Below, piece by piece: positions 5,371 through 14,030 of a stretch of 64,000 nt of DNA. The stretch comes from Haladaptatus sp. ZSTT2 (GTDB taxonomy: Archaea > Halobacteriota > Halobacteria > Halobacteriales > Halococcaceae): positions 2,170,001 to 2,234,000 of the forward strand of contig NZ_JBAMHQ010000001.1 of assembly GCF_037081775.1 (NCBI RefSeq). Direction: 5' to 3'. The translations under genes were made by a program, and so were the position numbers. The notes beneath the pieces were generated by a model. It was not told the DNA's origin, did no database searches, and worked only from the letters and a program-made list of their open reading frames with translations. How positions within the stretch are numbered: the stretch's first letter is position 1; each line of letters begins with the position of its first letter.

Positions 5371-5390
5371 CCCACAACTTCAGTCGTGAG
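5371..5390. repeat. Degenerate IS1341-type right end overlapping a gene 3' end
   Basis: The sequence CCCACAACTTCAGTCGTGAG forms the imperfect stem-loop that usually follows tnpB in these elements (normally CCCACGACTTCAGTCGTGGG). It overlaps the last codons and stop of the convergent multicopper oxidase gene. Confidence 0.55.
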
Positions 5391-7059
5391 TAACTGACTC
5401 AACCTTTCGCACGACTTCAAAGGGACGCATCATCTCGTGATCCTCGTGTTCGAGGATGTGGCAGTGCCACGGATACTGGCCGACGAAATCCCCGAATTTC
5501 ACGAGAATTCGAACCGTCTCCCCAGGATTCACTCGAACGACGTCTTTGCCAACCCGTTCGTTCGGGGCAGGTTCGTCCGTTCCGTCAGGCCCGCGTCCGA
5601 GAACATCGAAGTGAACCAGGTGGAGATGGAGCGGGTGGGTGTGCATGGTCTTGTTTTCGACGTTCCAGATCTCGGTCGTCCCAAGGTGTGGTTTGATAGT
5701 GGTTTCGTCGTTGAATCGTCGGTTGTTCAGCAAGTGAAGCGGACGACCAAACTCGTCTTGGGTCATGGTCATCGTCATGTGGCGCGTTTTTCGCGCGGCC
5801 TTCTCGTTTGGTCGCGGAACCGTTGGCAGGTCGAGTGTGGTTGAGTCTGCACTCTCGTCTGCCACCTTGCCGTTTGACTCTGCGACTCGAATCTGCATCA
5901 ACTCGGGAAGGGACGTTCCCGATTCCATGTGGCCATCGTGGTCACCGTGTTCGTCGAGGCCAGTAAACGGGAACGGGGCGTCGTTCCTGAGCGTGATCGT
6001 CTCGCCTGCGTGTGCTGAGAAATCAACGATAACGTCGCCGCGCTCGAAGGGAGCGAGCAACAGCGAGTGCAGGTCACCGTCCGGCCCGATGGGGACGACC
6101 CGGTCGAGGAAGCCGTGATCGGCGGCAAACTGGTGCATCGTCGGGACGTCCGTGCCGTCGTCGTTTTCGAGGTGGAGGTTGTACGTCCGGCCGTTCGAGG
6201 TGTTCACGAACCGGAGGCGATAGCGACGCGGTTCGACCTCCATATACGGCCACACTGCACCGTTGATTACGGCCGTATCGCCAGCGACGTTCGGTTCGAA
6301 CGAGTCCGGATAGGAGAGCGAGCCGTCTTCGTTGAACGTCCGGTCGTGGAGCATGAGCGGAACGTCGTACTCGTCACTTGGCAGGTTGAGGTGCTCTTCT
6401 GCCTGACTGGTGATGAAGTAGAAGCCGACCAAGCCGGCGTAGTTGTTCAACCGACTAATGCCTCGCGTGTGGTCGTGATACGACGTTGTCATCCTCGATT
6501 GCCGATTCGGAAGCTCGTGGACGTGCTTGGCGAATCGAGGCCCGGTACTTCCATCAGGGGAAGTCCACATGTCCGCCTGACCATCGCTCTCCGGTTCGAC
6601 GTTGAGGCCGTGTACGTGCGTTACCGTTCGCACCTCTGGAACGAGGCCGTCGAAGCCGGGATAATCCTCGGGCTTCGTTCCCGCAATTCGCTCGTCTACA
6701 GACAGGAGGTGGGCTTCCGGGAGCGAACTATTGTCGAACCGAATGTTGAGCCGCTCGTTTCGCCGTGCGTTGATAATCGGCCCGGGGTATTGCCCGTCAA
6801 ATCCCCACAGCGTCGTTTTCGGGAGGTCGGGGTGCAGCCGCTCCGAAAATTCCACGATCGGGATCTCGTAGTATTTCGCTCCATTTCGTCGTCCATCGGG
6901 CGTTCGTTCAGTCGGAATCGGTAGCGGTTGGACGTACTTTTCGAGTTCTGGTGACGTGCCTGCGGTGGTAGCTGCGCTCGTTCCAGCGTACAGCGCGGGG
7001 AGTGTCAGGGCGCTCCCAGCCGCCTTCAACACGGTTCGTCGGGTGGGGTCGGAGGGCAT
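5380..7059 (-). CDS. Tat-exported multicopper oxidase (CotA/laccase/bilirubin-oxidase type)
   Basis: 559 residues: TRRTVLKAAG twin-arginine signal, then three cupredoxin domains. Trinuclear-site ligands are visible as HVH (148-150), YHDH (194-197), HTHPLHLH (from 473) and HCHILEHEDHEM (from 532), the last with the type-1 Cys533 and axial Met. This arrangement matches CotA-like two-His-four-repeat oxidases that couple one-electron oxidation of phenolics or metal ions to reduction of O2 to water outside the cell. Single gene, with no copper chaperone next to it. The final codons lie inside a degenerate insertion-element end, so the last few residues may not be native. The physiological substrate (Mn, Cu(I), phenolics) cannot be told from sequence. 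Confidence 0.93.
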   Translation of the reverse strand: MPSDPTRRTVLKAAGSALTLPALYAGTSAATTAGTSPELEKYVQPLPIPTERTPDGRRNGAKYYEIPIVEFSERLHPDLPKTTLWGFDGQYPGPIINARRNERLNIRFDNSSLPEAHLLSVDERIAGTKPEDYPGFDGLVPEVRTVTHVHGLNVEPESDGQADMWTSPDGSTGPRFAKHVHELPNRQSRMTTSYHDHTRGISRLNNYAGLVGFYFITSQAEEHLNLPSDEYDVPLMLHDRTFNEDGSLSYPDSFEPNVAGDTAVINGAVWPYMEVEPRRYRLRFVNTSNGRTYNLHLENDDGTDVPTMHQFAADHGFLDRVVPIGPDGDLHSLLLAPFERGDVIVDFSAHAGETITLRNDAPFPFTGLDEHGDHDGHMESGTSLPELMQIRVAESNGKVADESADSTTLDLPTVPRPNEKAARKTRHMTMTMTQDEFGRPLHLLNNRRFNDETTIKPHLGTTEIWNVENKTMHTHPLHLHLVHFDVLGRGPDGTDEPAPNERVGKDVVRVNPGETVRILVKFGDFVGQYPWHCHILEHEDHEMMRPFEVVRKVESVTHD

Positions 7060-7785: not shown

Positions 7786-9342
7786 ATGCGCGACACGACT
7801 CCCTCGACAGACTCGAACCACAACTCAAACACCTCCTCCACACTCGGACGACGGTCTTTTCTGGGTGCACTTGGGGCAACCGCGGCGGGCGCGTCACTCC
7901 TCACGTCAGGTACAGCGGCTGCATCACACGTCGAAGACCGGTACGACCGCGTCATCGACATCGTCGACGACGCCGGTGCGGACAACTCCGGCGACGAGTC
8001 CATCACGCCGATTTTAGAAAAGTATGCAGCAGACGACACGCTACTCAAGTTCCCACCAGGGCGGTACTTCATGGACTCGCAGTTCCGGTTTACGGGCTTC
8101 GAAAACTTTGGGATGGTTGGCGACGACGCCACGCTCGTCCCCGCAAACTACCACAACTTCGACGGGCCACAGTATCGGCTCTTCAGACTCGGTGTTGACT
8201 ACGACCCTGGCGTCGATCTGCGCGTCCAAGGGTTCGCGGTCGACCTTCGGGCCGACGATACGGGCATCCGCGTCATCGAAGCAGAAGTCACGGATGGACT
8301 GTTTGTCGATGACATCACGGTCGTCGGTCGCCACGACAGTGGAACGTTCGGCCCAGGGCTATTCAATATCCTCTCAGCAGACGGCAAGGGCATGGTCAAG
8401 CGTTTTCGCGCGAACGACGGTGGGGCGTTCTCCGAGAACGCACCGGGTGACATCTGGCGCGGCCCATCTGGGCTGATGACCTCGAAGAGTCACGTAGGAC
8501 AACTTGAGTTCAAGGATTGCGAACTCAACGATTGGCCGGACAACGGTCTTTACACTCCTTCAGAAGGCCGCGTCATCGTAAACGGCGGCCGCTTCGCAAA
8601 CAGTGAGGCTGCGAGCATTCGAATGAGTGGTCACGACTGTCTCATCACCGGTGCAGAAGTCGTCGTTGACCAGCAACACGACGAAAACCAGAACCAGCGG
8701 GGCATCCGCCTCGATGGAGGGTCTGACCTTCGGGTGGACGACACCACGATTCGACTGGAGAAGCCGAACGGCCACGCGCTCACCGTCATGGACGACGTCG
8801 AGAGCGCATGGCTGAGCCGTCTTGACGTGCACGTTGGTGACGAAGTCAATCACGGCATCGTCGTCCAATCCAATGCTGGTTCGACGAAAATCACCCGTTC
8901 CGATATCGAGATTCAGCGTGGCGGCAACGCCATCCAAATCAACGGCTCTGACGCAGGCGCGGTCATCTGCAAGCACCTGGATATCACTGGCGACGCACAG
9001 GGGTACATCTGGCCGACTGCGATTCGCAGTACACGCAACAACTGTGTGTTCCACAACGTCAACTACAATCAGACGGGCGACCGCGGCCGGAAGGCAATGT
9101 GGTTAGACGGCGTTGGCTCGCGCGTCTCTGGCGGACAACAGACGGCCGCTGCCTACCCGTTCGTCGTGAAGGGGTCCGACCTCCTCATTGAGGACCTGAA
9201 CGCCCAGTCGGTAGATGGCTATGAGGCAATCCAACTGAGCGATCAGAGTTCGGATGTGACGATTCGAAACAGCGACATCGAACGCGGTGTCGAAGACAAT
9301 GGCTGTGCGGGCCTTGAGATGTACGGCAACGATACGAGCTAA
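7786..9342 (+). CDS. Tat-exported right-handed beta-helix protein
   Basis: 518 residues. The N-terminus has a Ser/Thr/Asn-rich lead, the twin-arginine motif GRRSFLGALG and an alanine-rich cleavage region near residue 47. The mature protein begins with a pectate-lyase-like opening (residues ~60-100, LLKFPPGRYFM), then repeated short beta-strand units with NG, D and G turns, e.g. VIVNGGRF, KITRSDIEI and VTIRNSDIE, typical of parallel beta-helices (Pbeta-H1/PL-6 superfamily folds). Such proteins bind or cleave polysaccharides at the cell surface. No catalytic triad of a named lyase family could be pointed to, so activity is open. Stands alone. Confidence 0.85.
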   Translation: MRDTTPSTDSNHNSNTSSTLGRRSFLGALGATAAGASLLTSGTAAASHVEDRYDRVIDIVDDAGADNSGDESITPILEKYAADDTLLKFPPGRYFMDSQFRFTGFENFGMVGDDATLVPANYHNFDGPQYRLFRLGVDYDPGVDLRVQGFAVDLRADDTGIRVIEAEVTDGLFVDDITVVGRHDSGTFGPGLFNILSADGKGMVKRFRANDGGAFSENAPGDIWRGPSGLMTSKSHVGQLEFKDCELNDWPDNGLYTPSEGRVIVNGGRFANSEAASIRMSGHDCLITGAEVVVDQQHDENQNQRGIRLDGGSDLRVDDTTIRLEKPNGHALTVMDDVESAWLSRLDVHVGDEVNHGIVVQSNAGSTKITRSDIEIQRGGNAIQINGSDAGAVICKHLDITGDAQGYIWPTAIRSTRNNCVFHNVNYNQTGDRGRKAMWLDGVGSRVSGGQQTAAAYPFVVKGSDLLIEDLNAQSVDGYEAIQLSDQSSDVTIRNSDIERGVEDNGCAGLEMYGNDTS

Positions 9343-9797
9343 CGTCGAAGGCGACAGCCCGAGCTGTGTTTCGCTCTCAGGTGGCTACGCCCTCTCCTGG
9401 CTGTAGCTTCGACGGTGACCGTGTGAGCAGCGCGCGCTCGGCTCTCCACTCACCGCAAAACTCAATTTTCAGCACTTTCCCCGGGGTTCGAACCCGATTG
9501 TGCAACTCCACAGACTGAGACGGCTCTGTTCGCTCACTTCAGCGTTCTCAGGCTTCGGTTATCTCGGTTATACGTCACCATACAACAGACGGAGGACGCT
9601 CCCGGACGCTTGCTTCGAGGCAGGGACATTGTAGTTCCGAGTGCTGGTATGTCTCGCCGGTTCTGACGCCCTGTTGGCCAACGGTACTTTGCCAAGCTAC
9701 TTGGGCGAGCGGAGTCGTTAATCTATATGTGTTTTTTCACAGCTATTGAGTCCCGGTTCGTTCTTCCGGGGCAGGTGACCGTCGGAGAGGGTTGGTC
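9343..9797. other. Intergenic with one dispersed-repeat copy
   Basis: 455 nt without a credible frame. The central part (about 9430-9545) is a copy of the dispersed repeat also seen at 14.4-14.9 kb (listed separately). A TATA-like AATCTATATG at about 9720 lies upstream of the repeat-protein/phosphate-transporter operon. Confidence 0.6.
9430..9545 (-). repeat. Dispersed repeat, copy 1
   Basis: On the minus strand: GCACAATCGGGTTCGAACCC followed by CGG, preceded by CGAACAGAGCCGTCTCAG and followed about 40 nt later by GGTGAGTGGAGAGC. The same order of words is found at 14810-14935 (minus) and in part at 14400-14505 (plus), with roughly two thirds of positions alike by eye. GGGTTCGAACCC can form a small stem resembling a tRNA T-arm, but no tRNA surrounds it. 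Confidence 0.5.
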
Positions 9798-10586
9798 GTG
9801 AACCCGAGCCGCGTCGACTCCATCGTCGACTTGACCTACGGGCTGTTAATCGCGGTTTCGGTCGGGTTGATCGTAGTCGCCGGGACTGCCATCGGGCTAG
9901 CGTTCGGGTTCGGGGTGCTGGTCTCTTATGTCCTCCACGTTGTCTGGAAGATGGCTCGTTTTGACCCGAACTGGATGACGACGGCCGTAAAGGAGACCGT
10001 CGAGAAAACGGTCAACGAGACAGTGGAGAAGACGGTTGACGAGAAGGTGGGAGAGACGGTCGAAAAGACCGTTGGCGAGACCGTAGAGAAAACGGTTGGA
10101 GAAACCGTGGAGAAGACGGTCGACCAGAAAGTCGGAGAGACAGTCGAAAAGACGGTTGGGGAAACCGTCGAGAAGGCAGTCGGTGAGACAGTGGAGAAGA
10201 CGGTTGGCGAGACCGTAGAGAAGACGGTTGACGAGAAGGTCGGCGAGACGGTCGAGAAAACGGTTGCAGAGACGGTGGAGAAGACGGTTGACGAGAAGGT
10301 CGGCGAGACGGTCGAAAAGACGGTTGGGGAAACCGTCGAGAAGGCAGTCGGTGAGACAGTGGAGAAGACGGTTGACGAGAAGGTTGGCGAAACGGTTGAA
10401 AAGACGGTTGGGGAAACCGTCGAGAAGGCAGTCGGTGAGACAGTGGAGAAGACGGTTGGCGAGACTGTCGAGAAAACGGTCGACGAAAAGGTTGGCGAAA
10501 CAGTGGAGAAAACCTTGGAAGAACAACTGGCGGCCAAGAAGGAAAAGGACGAGACAACCGAGGACGACGAGACAGAGGACCGATGA
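9798..10586 (+). CDS. Membrane-anchored tetrad-repeat protein
   Basis: 262 residues. One or two membrane segments occupy residues ~12-50. Residues ~60-235 are built only from four-residue units of the forms VGET, VEKT, VDEK and VEKA, so valine recurs at every fourth position for about 45 units; a charged tail (KKEKDETTEDDETEDR) ends the protein. A strict 4-residue spacing suggests one long charged helix, probably self-associating, on one face of the membrane. The DNA is correspondingly repetitive. GTG at 9798 is preferred, with GGAGAGG 8 nt upstream; a TTG lies two codons earlier. It overlaps the phosphate transporter start by 4 nt (ATGA), so the two are translationally coupled and probably partners. 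Function unknown. Confidence 0.9.
   Translation: MNPSRVDSIVDLTYGLLIAVSVGLIVVAGTAIGLAFGFGVLVSYVLHVVWKMARFDPNWMTTAVKETVEKTVNETVEKTVDEKVGETVEKTVGETVEKTVGETVEKTVDQKVGETVEKTVGETVEKAVGETVEKTVGETVEKTVDEKVGETVEKTVAETVEKTVDEKVGETVEKTVGETVEKAVGETVEKTVDEKVGETVEKTVGETVEKAVGETVEKTVGETVEKTVDEKVGETVEKTLEEQLAAKKEKDETTEDDETEDR
9990..10515 (+). repeat. Tandem 12/24-nt coding repeats
   Basis: The DNA encoding the tetrad region consists of near-identical 12-nt words such as GAGACGGTCGAAAAGACGGT and variants, with larger identical blocks (for example the block from GTCGGAGAGACAGTCG near 10130 recurs near 10300 and 10390). This is slippage- and recombination-prone sequence, so copy number probably differs among strains. 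Confidence 0.9.
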
Positions 10587-11761
10587 TTAGCGTCCTCCTC
10601 GTCTCTGGCGTCCTTGTTTCGATGTTCGTCGCCTACAACATCGGTGGGTCGACCACGGGCCCGGCGTTCGGGCCTGCTGTCGGTGCCGACGCCATCTCGA
10701 AGCCCGCTGCCGCGGGACTGATGGGCGTATTCTTCTTCATCGGTGCGTGGACGCTCGGCCGGAACGTCGTGGCGAAACTCGGCACTGAACTGGTCGTCGA
10801 TACCGGTATCTTCACGCCCGAATCCTCCATCATGGTTCTCTTTTTCATCGGGATTGCACTGTTGGTCGGGAACGTCTTCGGCGTGCCAGCATCGACCTCG
10901 ATGACTGCTGTGGGTGCAATCGCCGGCCTCGGGCTGGCCGGTGGCGTGTTGAATCTCGCCGTGATGGGCCAGATCGTCATCTGGTGGGTCGTCTCCCCCA
11001 TCATCGGGTTTTGGGTCTCGTTGATCATCGGTCGGTACTTCTACGCCCGGCTGAACGGGATGGTCGCGATGGAGCGCAGCACGGGGCCCCTGTTCGACAT
11101 CGACCGATCGGGCCGTATCCCCATCCCACGAGTCCACCGAACGACAAACCGTCGGGAGCTGGGCGGGACGTTCACCGTCGTCGCAATCGGCTGTCTGATG
11201 GCCTTCTCCTCGGGAACGTCGAACATCGCCAACGCCGTCGCACCGCTGGTCGGCAGTGGCGAACTGGCGATGAACCCGGCCATCATCTTCGGTGGTATCG
11301 CCGTCACCATCGGGGCGTTCACCATCGCCCGACGAACCTTAGAGACGATGGGCAGTGACATCACGGAACTCCCCCTTACTGCGGCCATCGTTGTCGCGTC
11401 GGTTTCCTCGACGCTGGTCGTCTTCCTCTCGGCGCTCGGCATCCCCGCGAGCTTCGTCATCATCGCGACGATGTCTATCGTCGGGTTGGGCTGGGGGCGG
11501 GCGACCCGACCGATGACCGCCTCTGAGATAGTCGTCAGCGACGGCGGGCCACCTGTCAGGGTCGACGCGCTGGCAGCCGACGAGGAGGGCGAAACGCTTC
11601 CCCCCATCGGCGCGGAGAACCCCGAGGACATCCCCCGCCCAGGGGCGCTGTTCAACCCGGTGACGACCGCTCGGGTCGTCCTGATGCAGAACGTTGTGCC
11701 GGCCATCGCGACGGTTGGTTCCTATCTCATGTTCCGCTTTGTCCCGATATTCGGCTTCTGA
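10583..11761 (+). CDS. PiT family inorganic phosphate transporter
   Basis: 392-residue polytopic permease of the PiT/PHO4 family. The duplicated signature is visible: an N-terminal YNIGGSTTGPAFGPAVGA and, after a central hydrophilic region, AFSSGTSNIANAVAPLVGSG. The family imports phosphate (often as a metal-phosphate complex) with H+ or Na+. The start ATG overlaps the end of the upstream tetrad-repeat gene (ATGA). In many organisms PiT is coupled to a PhoU-like DUF47 regulator; here the tetrad-repeat protein takes that position instead. A hydrophilic cytoplasmic or external loop (~residues 310-350) precedes the last membrane segment. Confidence 0.93.
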   Translation: MISVLLVSGVLVSMFVAYNIGGSTTGPAFGPAVGADAISKPAAAGLMGVFFFIGAWTLGRNVVAKLGTELVVDTGIFTPESSIMVLFFIGIALLVGNVFGVPASTSMTAVGAIAGLGLAGGVLNLAVMGQIVIWWVVSPIIGFWVSLIIGRYFYARLNGMVAMERSTGPLFDIDRSGRIPIPRVHRTTNRRELGGTFTVVAIGCLMAFSSGTSNIANAVAPLVGSGELAMNPAIIFGGIAVTIGAFTIARRTLETMGSDITELPLTAAIVVASVSSTLVVFLSALGIPASFVIIATMSIVGLGWGRATRPMTASEIVVSDGGPPVRVDALAADEEGETLPPIGAENPEDIPRPGALFNPVTTARVVLMQNVVPAIATVGSYLMFRFVPIFGF

Positions 11762-12626: not shown

Positions 12627-12760
12627 ATTTCCTCGGGGTCAAGCCCCGAGGCTTCCCGTGGGTTAGTCGGACACTCCCACTCGACCATCGGCCTGATAGC
12701 CTCGAACGGTCGGTTGGGACACGGTCGGCTGATTCACACAGCCCGATGCCTGTCGTCGCA
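12595..12760 (-). ncRNA. Predicted omega (reRNA) of the tnpB element
   Basis: Inferred position only. In characterised IS200/IS605 elements the guide RNA overlaps the tnpB 3' end, folds through the right-end hairpin (here 12631-12651) and takes its guide from the flanking DNA, which here would be the complement of the last codons of the 122-aa exported protein gene (guide starting near 12630 and reading toward 12610). The 5' end is not defined. Confidence 0.35.
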
Positions 12761-14030
12761 GTTTCCGAATATTCGGCAACGTCTTGAGAGCAGGCACATT
12801 TCGATTCAACGACTCCAACCCTTTCTTCGCAATATTCACTGCCGCATTCCGGTCAGCATGGTCTTGCCGACCACACGCTTTGCACTTGAACCGCTTCTTC
12901 CGACGATTCGACCGAGCCGTATGCTCACACTCCGTAAAAGAACACATCTGACTGGTGTAAGCCGGGTCAATATCTTCGCTTGGAATCCCCTCGAACGCCG
13001 CCTTGTACGCGACGAACGAACGGAGTTTGTGAAACGGCAATGAGTGCAACCGACGATTCATCCGAGTGCCATAGTTAATCGAGTCTCGCATATGCTTGAG
13101 GTCTTCAAACACAACGAGTGGCGACTTGAATTGCTGAACCCACTCCACAATCTGGCGGGAGACTTGGTGGAGTTGGTCGTGGACGTATCGCTCCTCTTTG
13201 TTCTCGAACACACGGTCGAACGCTGTCTGCCCAACGTTCTGCATCCGCTTTCGCATCGTGAAGTATCGATGCCGCTCGTGTTTGATTTCCGGGTAGTCGA
13301 TGACCACCGAATCCACAAGGTCGTCTTCACGAAGGGCGGCAAGCGCCACACAGTCCTCGTTAATATCCACTCCCACGACGGTTTGAGCGTCGTGTTTGTC
13401 GTGGACGGTCGCTTCGAGGTGAGTGACGTTGACGTGCAGTTCGTGGTTTCCGTTGCGAACTATCGCTTCGGCTGTTCCAACACGCCATTTGTCGCTTTCG
13501 AGGGCTTGTTCGAGAAGTTCGAGGTTGTCAGGCGAACCACGAAGCGTGCCGTTGACTGGGTTGTATGGTTTGGCACTGATTCGGTAGTGTATCCCGTCGT
13601 CTTTGAGCGTAAGGTTGTATCCTTCGGTGAAGTTCATCCTCAACGGGTATGGGCCAGTTTTCTCATAACTGGGCGTGTTGTAGTCGTCTCGGTCGTAGGA
13701 TTGCTGAAGTGCGTCTAACGACTTGGCGACGACTCGTTGCGTGGTGTTCTTCACGAGGTTTGCCTCGTCTTCCAGACGGGGTGAGATGTTGTCCCAGTCC
13801 ATTCCGTTTGTCGCTAACTGGATGGTCTGGTTGTACACCCATCGGGCTTCGTGATACGCTTCGGAGAGAAGTCGCTCGTCATCGGGTTGGAGTTGGAAGA
13901 CGAGTGTCTTCGTAAGCGACTTCTCCATACACTATTCGACGGACTCAAGTGCTGTAAAGGTATAGATTATCGTTGATAGATTGGGCGTTGTCGGCTTCAC
14001 CCCCGAGGTCAAGCCTCGGGGCACTCGCCT
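12629..14030 (-). mobile_element. IS1341-type element (tnpB only)
   Basis: Bounded by matching hairpins: CCTCGGGG-TCAAG-CCCCGAGG at 12631-12651 (right end) and CCCCGAGG-TCAAG-CCTCGGGG at 14001-14021 (left end). It carries tnpB on the minus strand and no tnpA, so it would move only if a Y1 transposase is supplied in trans. By analogy with studied TnpB systems, an omega (right-end) RNA should read out of the tnpB 3' end through the 12631-12651 hairpin into the flank. Exact outer boundaries are approximate. Confidence 0.8.
12663..13928 (-). CDS. tnpB: TnpB RNA-guided nuclease (IS605 OrfB family), full length
   Basis: 421 residues with all expected parts: N-terminal OrfB_IS605 domain (YHEARWVYNQTIQLA), RuvC motif I GVDINEDC, motif II VFEDLKHMR, zinc ribbon CSFTEC...CKACG and motif III DHADRNAAVNIAKKG, so the D-E-D catalytic triad is intact. 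TnpB proteins cut DNA guided by the RNA made from the element's right end and help retain the element at its donor site. No frameshift is visible, unlike the fragment at 5058-5366. The stop lies just before the right-end hairpin. Confidence 0.93.
   Translation of the reverse strand: MEKSLTKTLVFQLQPDDERLLSEAYHEARWVYNQTIQLATNGMDWDNISPRLEDEANLVKNTTQRVVAKSLDALQQSYDRDDYNTPSYEKTGPYPLRMNFTEGYNLTLKDDGIHYRISAKPYNPVNGTLRGSPDNLELLEQALESDKWRVGTAEAIVRNGNHELHVNVTHLEATVHDKHDAQTVVGVDINEDCVALAALREDDLVDSVVIDYPEIKHERHRYFTMRKRMQNVGQTAFDRVFENKEERYVHDQLHQVSRQIVEWVQQFKSPLVVFEDLKHMRDSINYGTRMNRRLHSLPFHKLRSFVAYKAAFEGIPSEDIDPAYTSQMCSFTECEHTARSNRRKKRFKCKACGRQDHADRNAAVNIAKKGLESLNRNVPALKTLPNIRKLRRQASGCVNQPTVSQPTVRGYQADGRVGVSD

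Follow-up and report, generated by a model that had tools for sequence, protein, structure and literature searches.

A PiT-superfamily transporter travels with a membrane protein made of a two-helix hairpin and a tetrad-repeat tail across haloarchaea, suggesting that this partner is probably an accessory subunit of the transporter. The pair was found in a window of 64,000 nucleotides (the whole stretch of DNA that was analysed). The partner is an undescribed small membrane protein whose predicted helix probably follows a pattern foreign to standard coiled coils, and the transporter belongs to a clade that lacks the aspartates of the family motif.

Organization of the gene pair

The partner gene (9798..10586) encodes 262 aa from a GTG start, with an alternative TTG at 9792, and has homologues in other genomes. 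The transporter gene (10583..11761) encodes 392 aa and is CysP-like, with matches to Pfam PF01384 (PHO4), NF053884 and 6l85. Both genes lie on the + strand, and the partner stop overlaps the transporter start in the sequence ATGA (10583..10586), which makes translational coupling likely. A sequence-only reading of the locus had given these coordinates and the overlap correctly, and the N-terminal transmembrane helices that it proposed were recovered at residues 3-28 and 30-54 of the partner. These helices form a membrane hairpin (9798..9983, residues 1-62; MNPSRVDS...WKMARFDPNWMT), the two ends of which are probably cytoplasmic, as judged from the charges of R5, K51 and R54. The hairpin is followed by 44 consecutive V-x-x-x units predicted to be helical (9987..10514, residues 64-239) and by an acidic C-terminal tail, LEEQLAAKKEKDETTEDDETEDR (10515..10583), with a net charge of -7.

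An antisense open frame of 403 aa (9926-11137, - strand) covers the repeat and the transporter start and is most likely a side effect of the GTN/GAR/ACN codon pattern. Upstream of the gene pair lies a gene for an apparent Tat-signal right-handed beta-helix protein (7786-9342, + strand; Pfam Beta_helix), and the gene at 5380-7059 (- strand) encodes a multicopper oxidase that also seems to carry a Tat signal. A stand-alone TnpB-like gene with a Cas12f1-like TNB domain (E 8e-20) lies approximately 0.9 kb downstream of the transporter (12663-13928, - strand).

The hairpin domain and its family

A search with the hairpin domain returned 80 named loci, and the aligned domain of the relatives showed 68-95% identity. 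Of the 391 genomes covered by the search of the class Halobacteria, 274 carry the domain; in the phylum sample, every match fell inside the same order and none beyond it. The hairpin was modeled by AlphaFold2 with a pLDDT of ~80. In the plasmid records with annotation that were found, the partner gene is either unannotated or listed as "hypothetical protein". A profile built from the short forms of the partner gave no significant match in the PDB, and the partner did not match PhoU_div/DUF47 (PF01865). Matches of the tail to DUF445, DUF2884, RelB and other Pfam or NCBIfam models were rejected, being sub-threshold and due to the periodicity of the repeats only. Apparent fusions of partner and transporter in G209, G228, G264, G108 and G287 were likewise rejected, since each is an open frame that reads through beyond a normal, stand-alone gene.

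Linkage of the partner to one transporter clade

In the same-family transporter search, all seven members at >=62% identity (window included) had the partner adjacent, two in the ATGA arrangement and five divergently, and no partner was found beside the paralogues below 62% identity among the copies examined in the taxonomic family. Most of the 80 hairpin loci have an adjacent PiT-superfamily gene, and most same-strand relatives have either the ATGA overlap or a transporter ATG that overlaps the partner stop by one base. The two genes lay within 2.5 kb of each other in 83 of the 101 genomes in which both could be placed (median 701 bp; overlapping or divergent) and were unlinked in 18. The sequence-only reading had coupled the repeat protein to the transporter and had named its absence beside PiT genes elsewhere as the observation that would speak against this; the recurrence of the pair upholds the coupling.

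Linkage also followed the transporter phylogeny. In a tree of 113 transporters, the linked ones (69/69) all fell into one clade of 74 with a support of 100, while none of the 39 outside it was linked. Loci collected by way of the partner over-represent linkage; the sample that started from the transporter is free of this bias and agrees with them. A ten-residue motif, TGPAFGPAVG, marks the partner-linked clade. Across the 391 genomes, 245 contained both the hairpin and this motif, 29 the hairpin only, 15 the motif only and 102 neither. This co-occurrence held within genera (Mantel-Haenszel z 7.4 over 16 genera, the strata being assembled by hand from the class-wide hairpin and motif searches). 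The transporters of the window and of G005 clustered with those of Haloferacaceae instead of the rest of their own family, in which most relatives of the window pair are of the divergent type. Therefore, the pair was apparently transferred as a unit, and on this phylogenetic ground the two genes seem to move together.

No transporter was found within 6 kb of the unlinked hairpin members in Natrinema, Halorubrum, Halohasta and others; loci of this kind are L069, L072, L074, L075, L098, L102, L105, L106, L110 and L113. Most genomes with an unlinked partner in the class survey keep the transporter motif elsewhere. Because 18 of 101 genomes were unlinked and 29 carried the hairpin without the exact motif, some members may do something else, and a second role for the unlinked members is possible.

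Identity and substrate of the transporter

The transporter matched PF01384 with 136.9 bits (cut-off 33.7) over residues 20-318, which places it in the PiT/PHO4 family. Its best NCBIfam model was that of CysP (NF053884), at 155.7 bits against a cut-off of 400. The motif GANDVANA, the aspartate of which is present in both halves of Na+/phosphate-type PiT proteins, is replaced in the first half by NIGGSTTGPAFGPAVG (10637..10684), which contains NIGGSTTGPA, and in the second half by FSSGTSNIANA (11204..11236), in which N replaces the aspartate. Hence, the transporter has the CysP pattern, in which the aspartates of both halves are replaced, and the motifs are aspartate-less throughout the clade. 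A comparative study (PMC5840216) reads the loss of aspartate, seen in Bacillus subtilis CysP, as a sign that sulfate and not phosphate is transported.

The neighborhoods of the relatives were also surveyed. At 15 loci, mostly in Natrialbaceae, the cluster includes a gene matching CitMHS, Na_sulph_symp and TrkA_C (DASS-type; Pfam was run on one representative), and a universal stress protein gene occurs at 14 loci. In L073, L086, L094 and their relatives (Natrialbaceae), two or three CysP-like transporters and up to two tetrad partners lie side by side, along with genes for a universal stress protein and the CitMHS/Na_sulph_symp/TrkA_C symporter.

Since the aspartates are absent, CysP is the closest model and symporter genes are neighbors, sulfate or another oxyanion is more likely than phosphate as the substrate, as far as the motifs and gene neighborhoods indicate. 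The earlier assignment as a phosphate transporter is thus unsupported, with the CysP match itself being below its cut-off. The same reading placed the partner where PhoU/DUF47 regulators often sit. This stands only trivially, as the genome has no match to PF01865 at all (6 of 14 control genomes have one), indicating that PhoU/DUF47 is not involved here.

Sequence pattern of the tetrad tail

The 44 strict units of the window tail, previously counted as about 45, comprise VEKT (16), VGET (16), VDEK (5), VEKA (3) and four others that occur once each, and threonine occupies the fourth position in 35 of them. The spectrum of the tail peaks at 4.00 residues, and all spacings (45/45) equal four. As the sequence-only reading held, this is neither a heptad (3-4; 3.5) nor a hendecad (3-4-4; 3.67). 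The valines are encoded by GTC (18), GTT (15), GTG (8) and GTA (3); all four codons are used while the residue stays constant, indicating that valine was kept while the DNA drifted. When the genome was scanned for eight GTN codons at 12-nt spacing, 37 of 46 overlapping hits fell at this locus, and the other nine fell at three places resembling the antisense of Thr-rich or His-rich genes. This DNA scan revealed no comparable coding-strand tetrad array elsewhere in the genome. A literature search on tetrad repeats and on haloarchaeal sulfate PiT transporters gave nothing relevant.

Among 82 tails, successive V/I/L/M residues were exactly four apart in 89% of cases, compared with 11% after shuffling. 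The period was exactly 4.00 in 35 of these tails (the window and 34 of the other 81), and nearly all others had periods of 3.82-3.98 through occasional 3-residue steps; in several clades with inserted 3-residue steps (4-4-4-3 spacing), it was 3.82-3.9. Tail length ranged from about 5 to about 57 units among relatives, so that the expected variation in repeat number between strains was indeed present. Opposite-charge i/i+4 pairs numbered 37 in the window tail against 21.7 expected, a value that none of 1000 unit shuffles reached, and like-charge i/i+4 pairs were depleted.

Structure of the tail

The enrichment of i/i+4 opposite charges suggests that the tail is probably alpha-helical, an argument that is independent of structure prediction. 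In both AlphaFold2 models, the tail was predicted as long helices with low confidence (mean pLDDT 58 and 65; pTM 0.24 and 0.22). By simple geometry, a core repeating every 4.0 residues would have a supercoil pitch near 60 angstroms. According to PMC4786415, coiled coils are estimated to reach a periodicity of roughly 3.9 at most, with 4.0 outside the accessible range and YadA (3.8) as the most extreme case. The relatives span 3.82-3.98, and the window tail, at 4.00, lies past the accessible range; therefore, the stalk may be something other than a coiled coil. From the spacing pattern, the tail would be either a new extreme of the right-handed coil or a lone or loosely associated helix around which the valines spiral. 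It is doubtful, though conceivable, that helices of the pure-tetrad tails assemble into a homo-oligomeric stalk of defined make-up. Its core period of 4.0 would exceed that of every coiled coil described so far, and it would serve as an assembly or regulatory stalk of aspartate-less PiT transporters across haloarchaea.

In single alpha-helix domains nearly every residue is charged, and a strict hydrophobic seam (V/T) is absent. We tentatively allow that the tail is such a monomeric helix, a spacer, brush or antenna stabilized by i/i+4 salt bridges, in which the valine stripe forms no defined core and the protein is still a transporter partner. The window tail has an i/i+4 network of opposite charges, with like charges depleted, and a period beyond the published range, and tail length varies widely among relatives, all of which is consistent with this possibility. 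However, the valine at every fourth residue, invariant in 44 of 44 units despite codon variation, is a seam that single alpha-helix domains do not have, and the 3-residue steps that bring several clades to 3.82-3.9 are typical of right-handed coiled coils. That the tail is instead low-complexity filler, a neutral product of slippage of a 12-nt unit, is scarcely credible. The tail DNA does consist of tandem repeats (84-bp period, 79% match), L034, L041 and L050 have 32, 31 and 22 units although their operons are near-identical (with nearly identical transporters), and 12-nt steps alone would preserve the phase. Slippage can explain such changes in length; however, it does not account for the retention of valine across synonymous drift or for tetrads that are conserved class-wide with differing fillers (VTEE VSDK, VSDT VSKE, VEKT VGET).

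Proposed role of the partner

At the level of sequence, four features are established: the hairpin domain, the tetrad tail, the genomic and evolutionary coupling and the aspartate-less motifs. We infer an effect of the partner on transport. We give about even weight to a model in which the partner serves a CysP-like oxyanion transporter of the PiT superfamily as its dedicated accessory subunit, with the hairpin docked and a self-associating cytoplasmic stalk that clusters or tunes transporters. The two-helix hairpin would dock on the transporter in the membrane, and the charged cytoplasmic alpha-helix, up to ~260 angstroms long here if fully extended, would bear a stripe of valine and threonine that recurs every four residues. 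The stripe would probably drive parallel, right-handed self-association into a stalk. Such a stalk may cluster or scaffold the transporters, and the cytoplasm, through salt, ionic strength or another protein, may tune them via the stalk.

Two other explanations of the locus were considered. The genes may merely be co-transcribed or co-transferred, with the repeat protein acting as an independent membrane-anchored cytoplasmic rod in the envelope, in membrane organization or as a cytoskeletal element. The copies in Natrinema, Halorubrum and Halohasta without a nearby transporter and the genomes with the hairpin but not the motif fit such a rod, whereas adjacency that persists in two orientations and is exclusive to one transporter clade, together with the tendency of the two genes to occur or be missing together in many genera, makes it improbable. 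Alternatively, the transporter would be a Na+/phosphate PiT with an unusual regulator in place of PhoU/DUF47. The PHO4 match, the phosphate transporter 6l85 as the only solved sequence relative and the position of the partner upstream of the transporter in a genome that has no PhoU_div gene are compatible with this explanation; however, it is very unlikely given the clade-wide loss of both aspartates, the sulfate-type neighbor genes and the lack of any match between the partner and the PhoU_div family.

Under the accessory-subunit model, a large, conserved transporter partner that the annotated plasmid records list just as a hypothetical protein would gain a role, and the substrate of the haloarchaeal PiT/CysP-like transporter becomes directly testable. 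The natural series of tails, with periods between 3.82 and 4.00 residues per turn, offers a test of the limit of helix supercoiling, and it also probes whether very high intracellular salt allows patterns unseen elsewhere.

Comparison with known systems

The sulfate permease CysP of Bacillus subtilis (TCDB 2.A.20.4.1) resembles the window transporter in family, in the replacement of the aspartates in both halves and as the best NCBIfam match, but the score falls short of the model cut-off; the literature passages on CysP that were consulted mention no partner protein. Genes of the DUF47/PhoU_div type beside pit genes share with the partner the position directly upstream of a PiT gene and a possible regulatory role; however, the partner is a membrane hairpin with a tetrad helix and does not match their family model.

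Right-handed coiled coils (hendecad, pentadecad, YadA 19/5; PMC4786415) are similar in having a long helix, a V/T-rich seam and a period above 3.63, and the relatives with 4-4-4-3 spacing come close to them, whereas the window tail and 34 of 81 others peak beyond both the limit and YadA. The middle region of CdrL (PF24252) is matched by the partner repeats at 34.5 against a Pfam cut-off of 27. The cut-off was passed by the repeats only, and the match of the partner is probably driven by periodicity; the whole-genome search reported only the real CdrL locus. Unlike the partner, CdrL appears to be a soluble, DNA-binding, zinc-ribbon protein encoded beside an FtsZ-like gene, with approximately six tetrads and no hairpin. 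The CdrL of this genome (L167; G000:C1:2139558-2139701, - strand) lies next to an FtsZ-like frame and includes a few consecutive V/I/L tetrads, VAERVDALISERLDTLIDARL. The use of tetrad helices may be more widespread among haloarchaea.

ProP is an osmosensory transporter with a C-terminal coiled coil of the heptad type, which is part of the transporter itself. The likeness is that a secondary transporter is tuned by a coil in the cytoplasm; in ProP the coil is heptad and lies within the transporter, whereas here a separate subunit would carry it.
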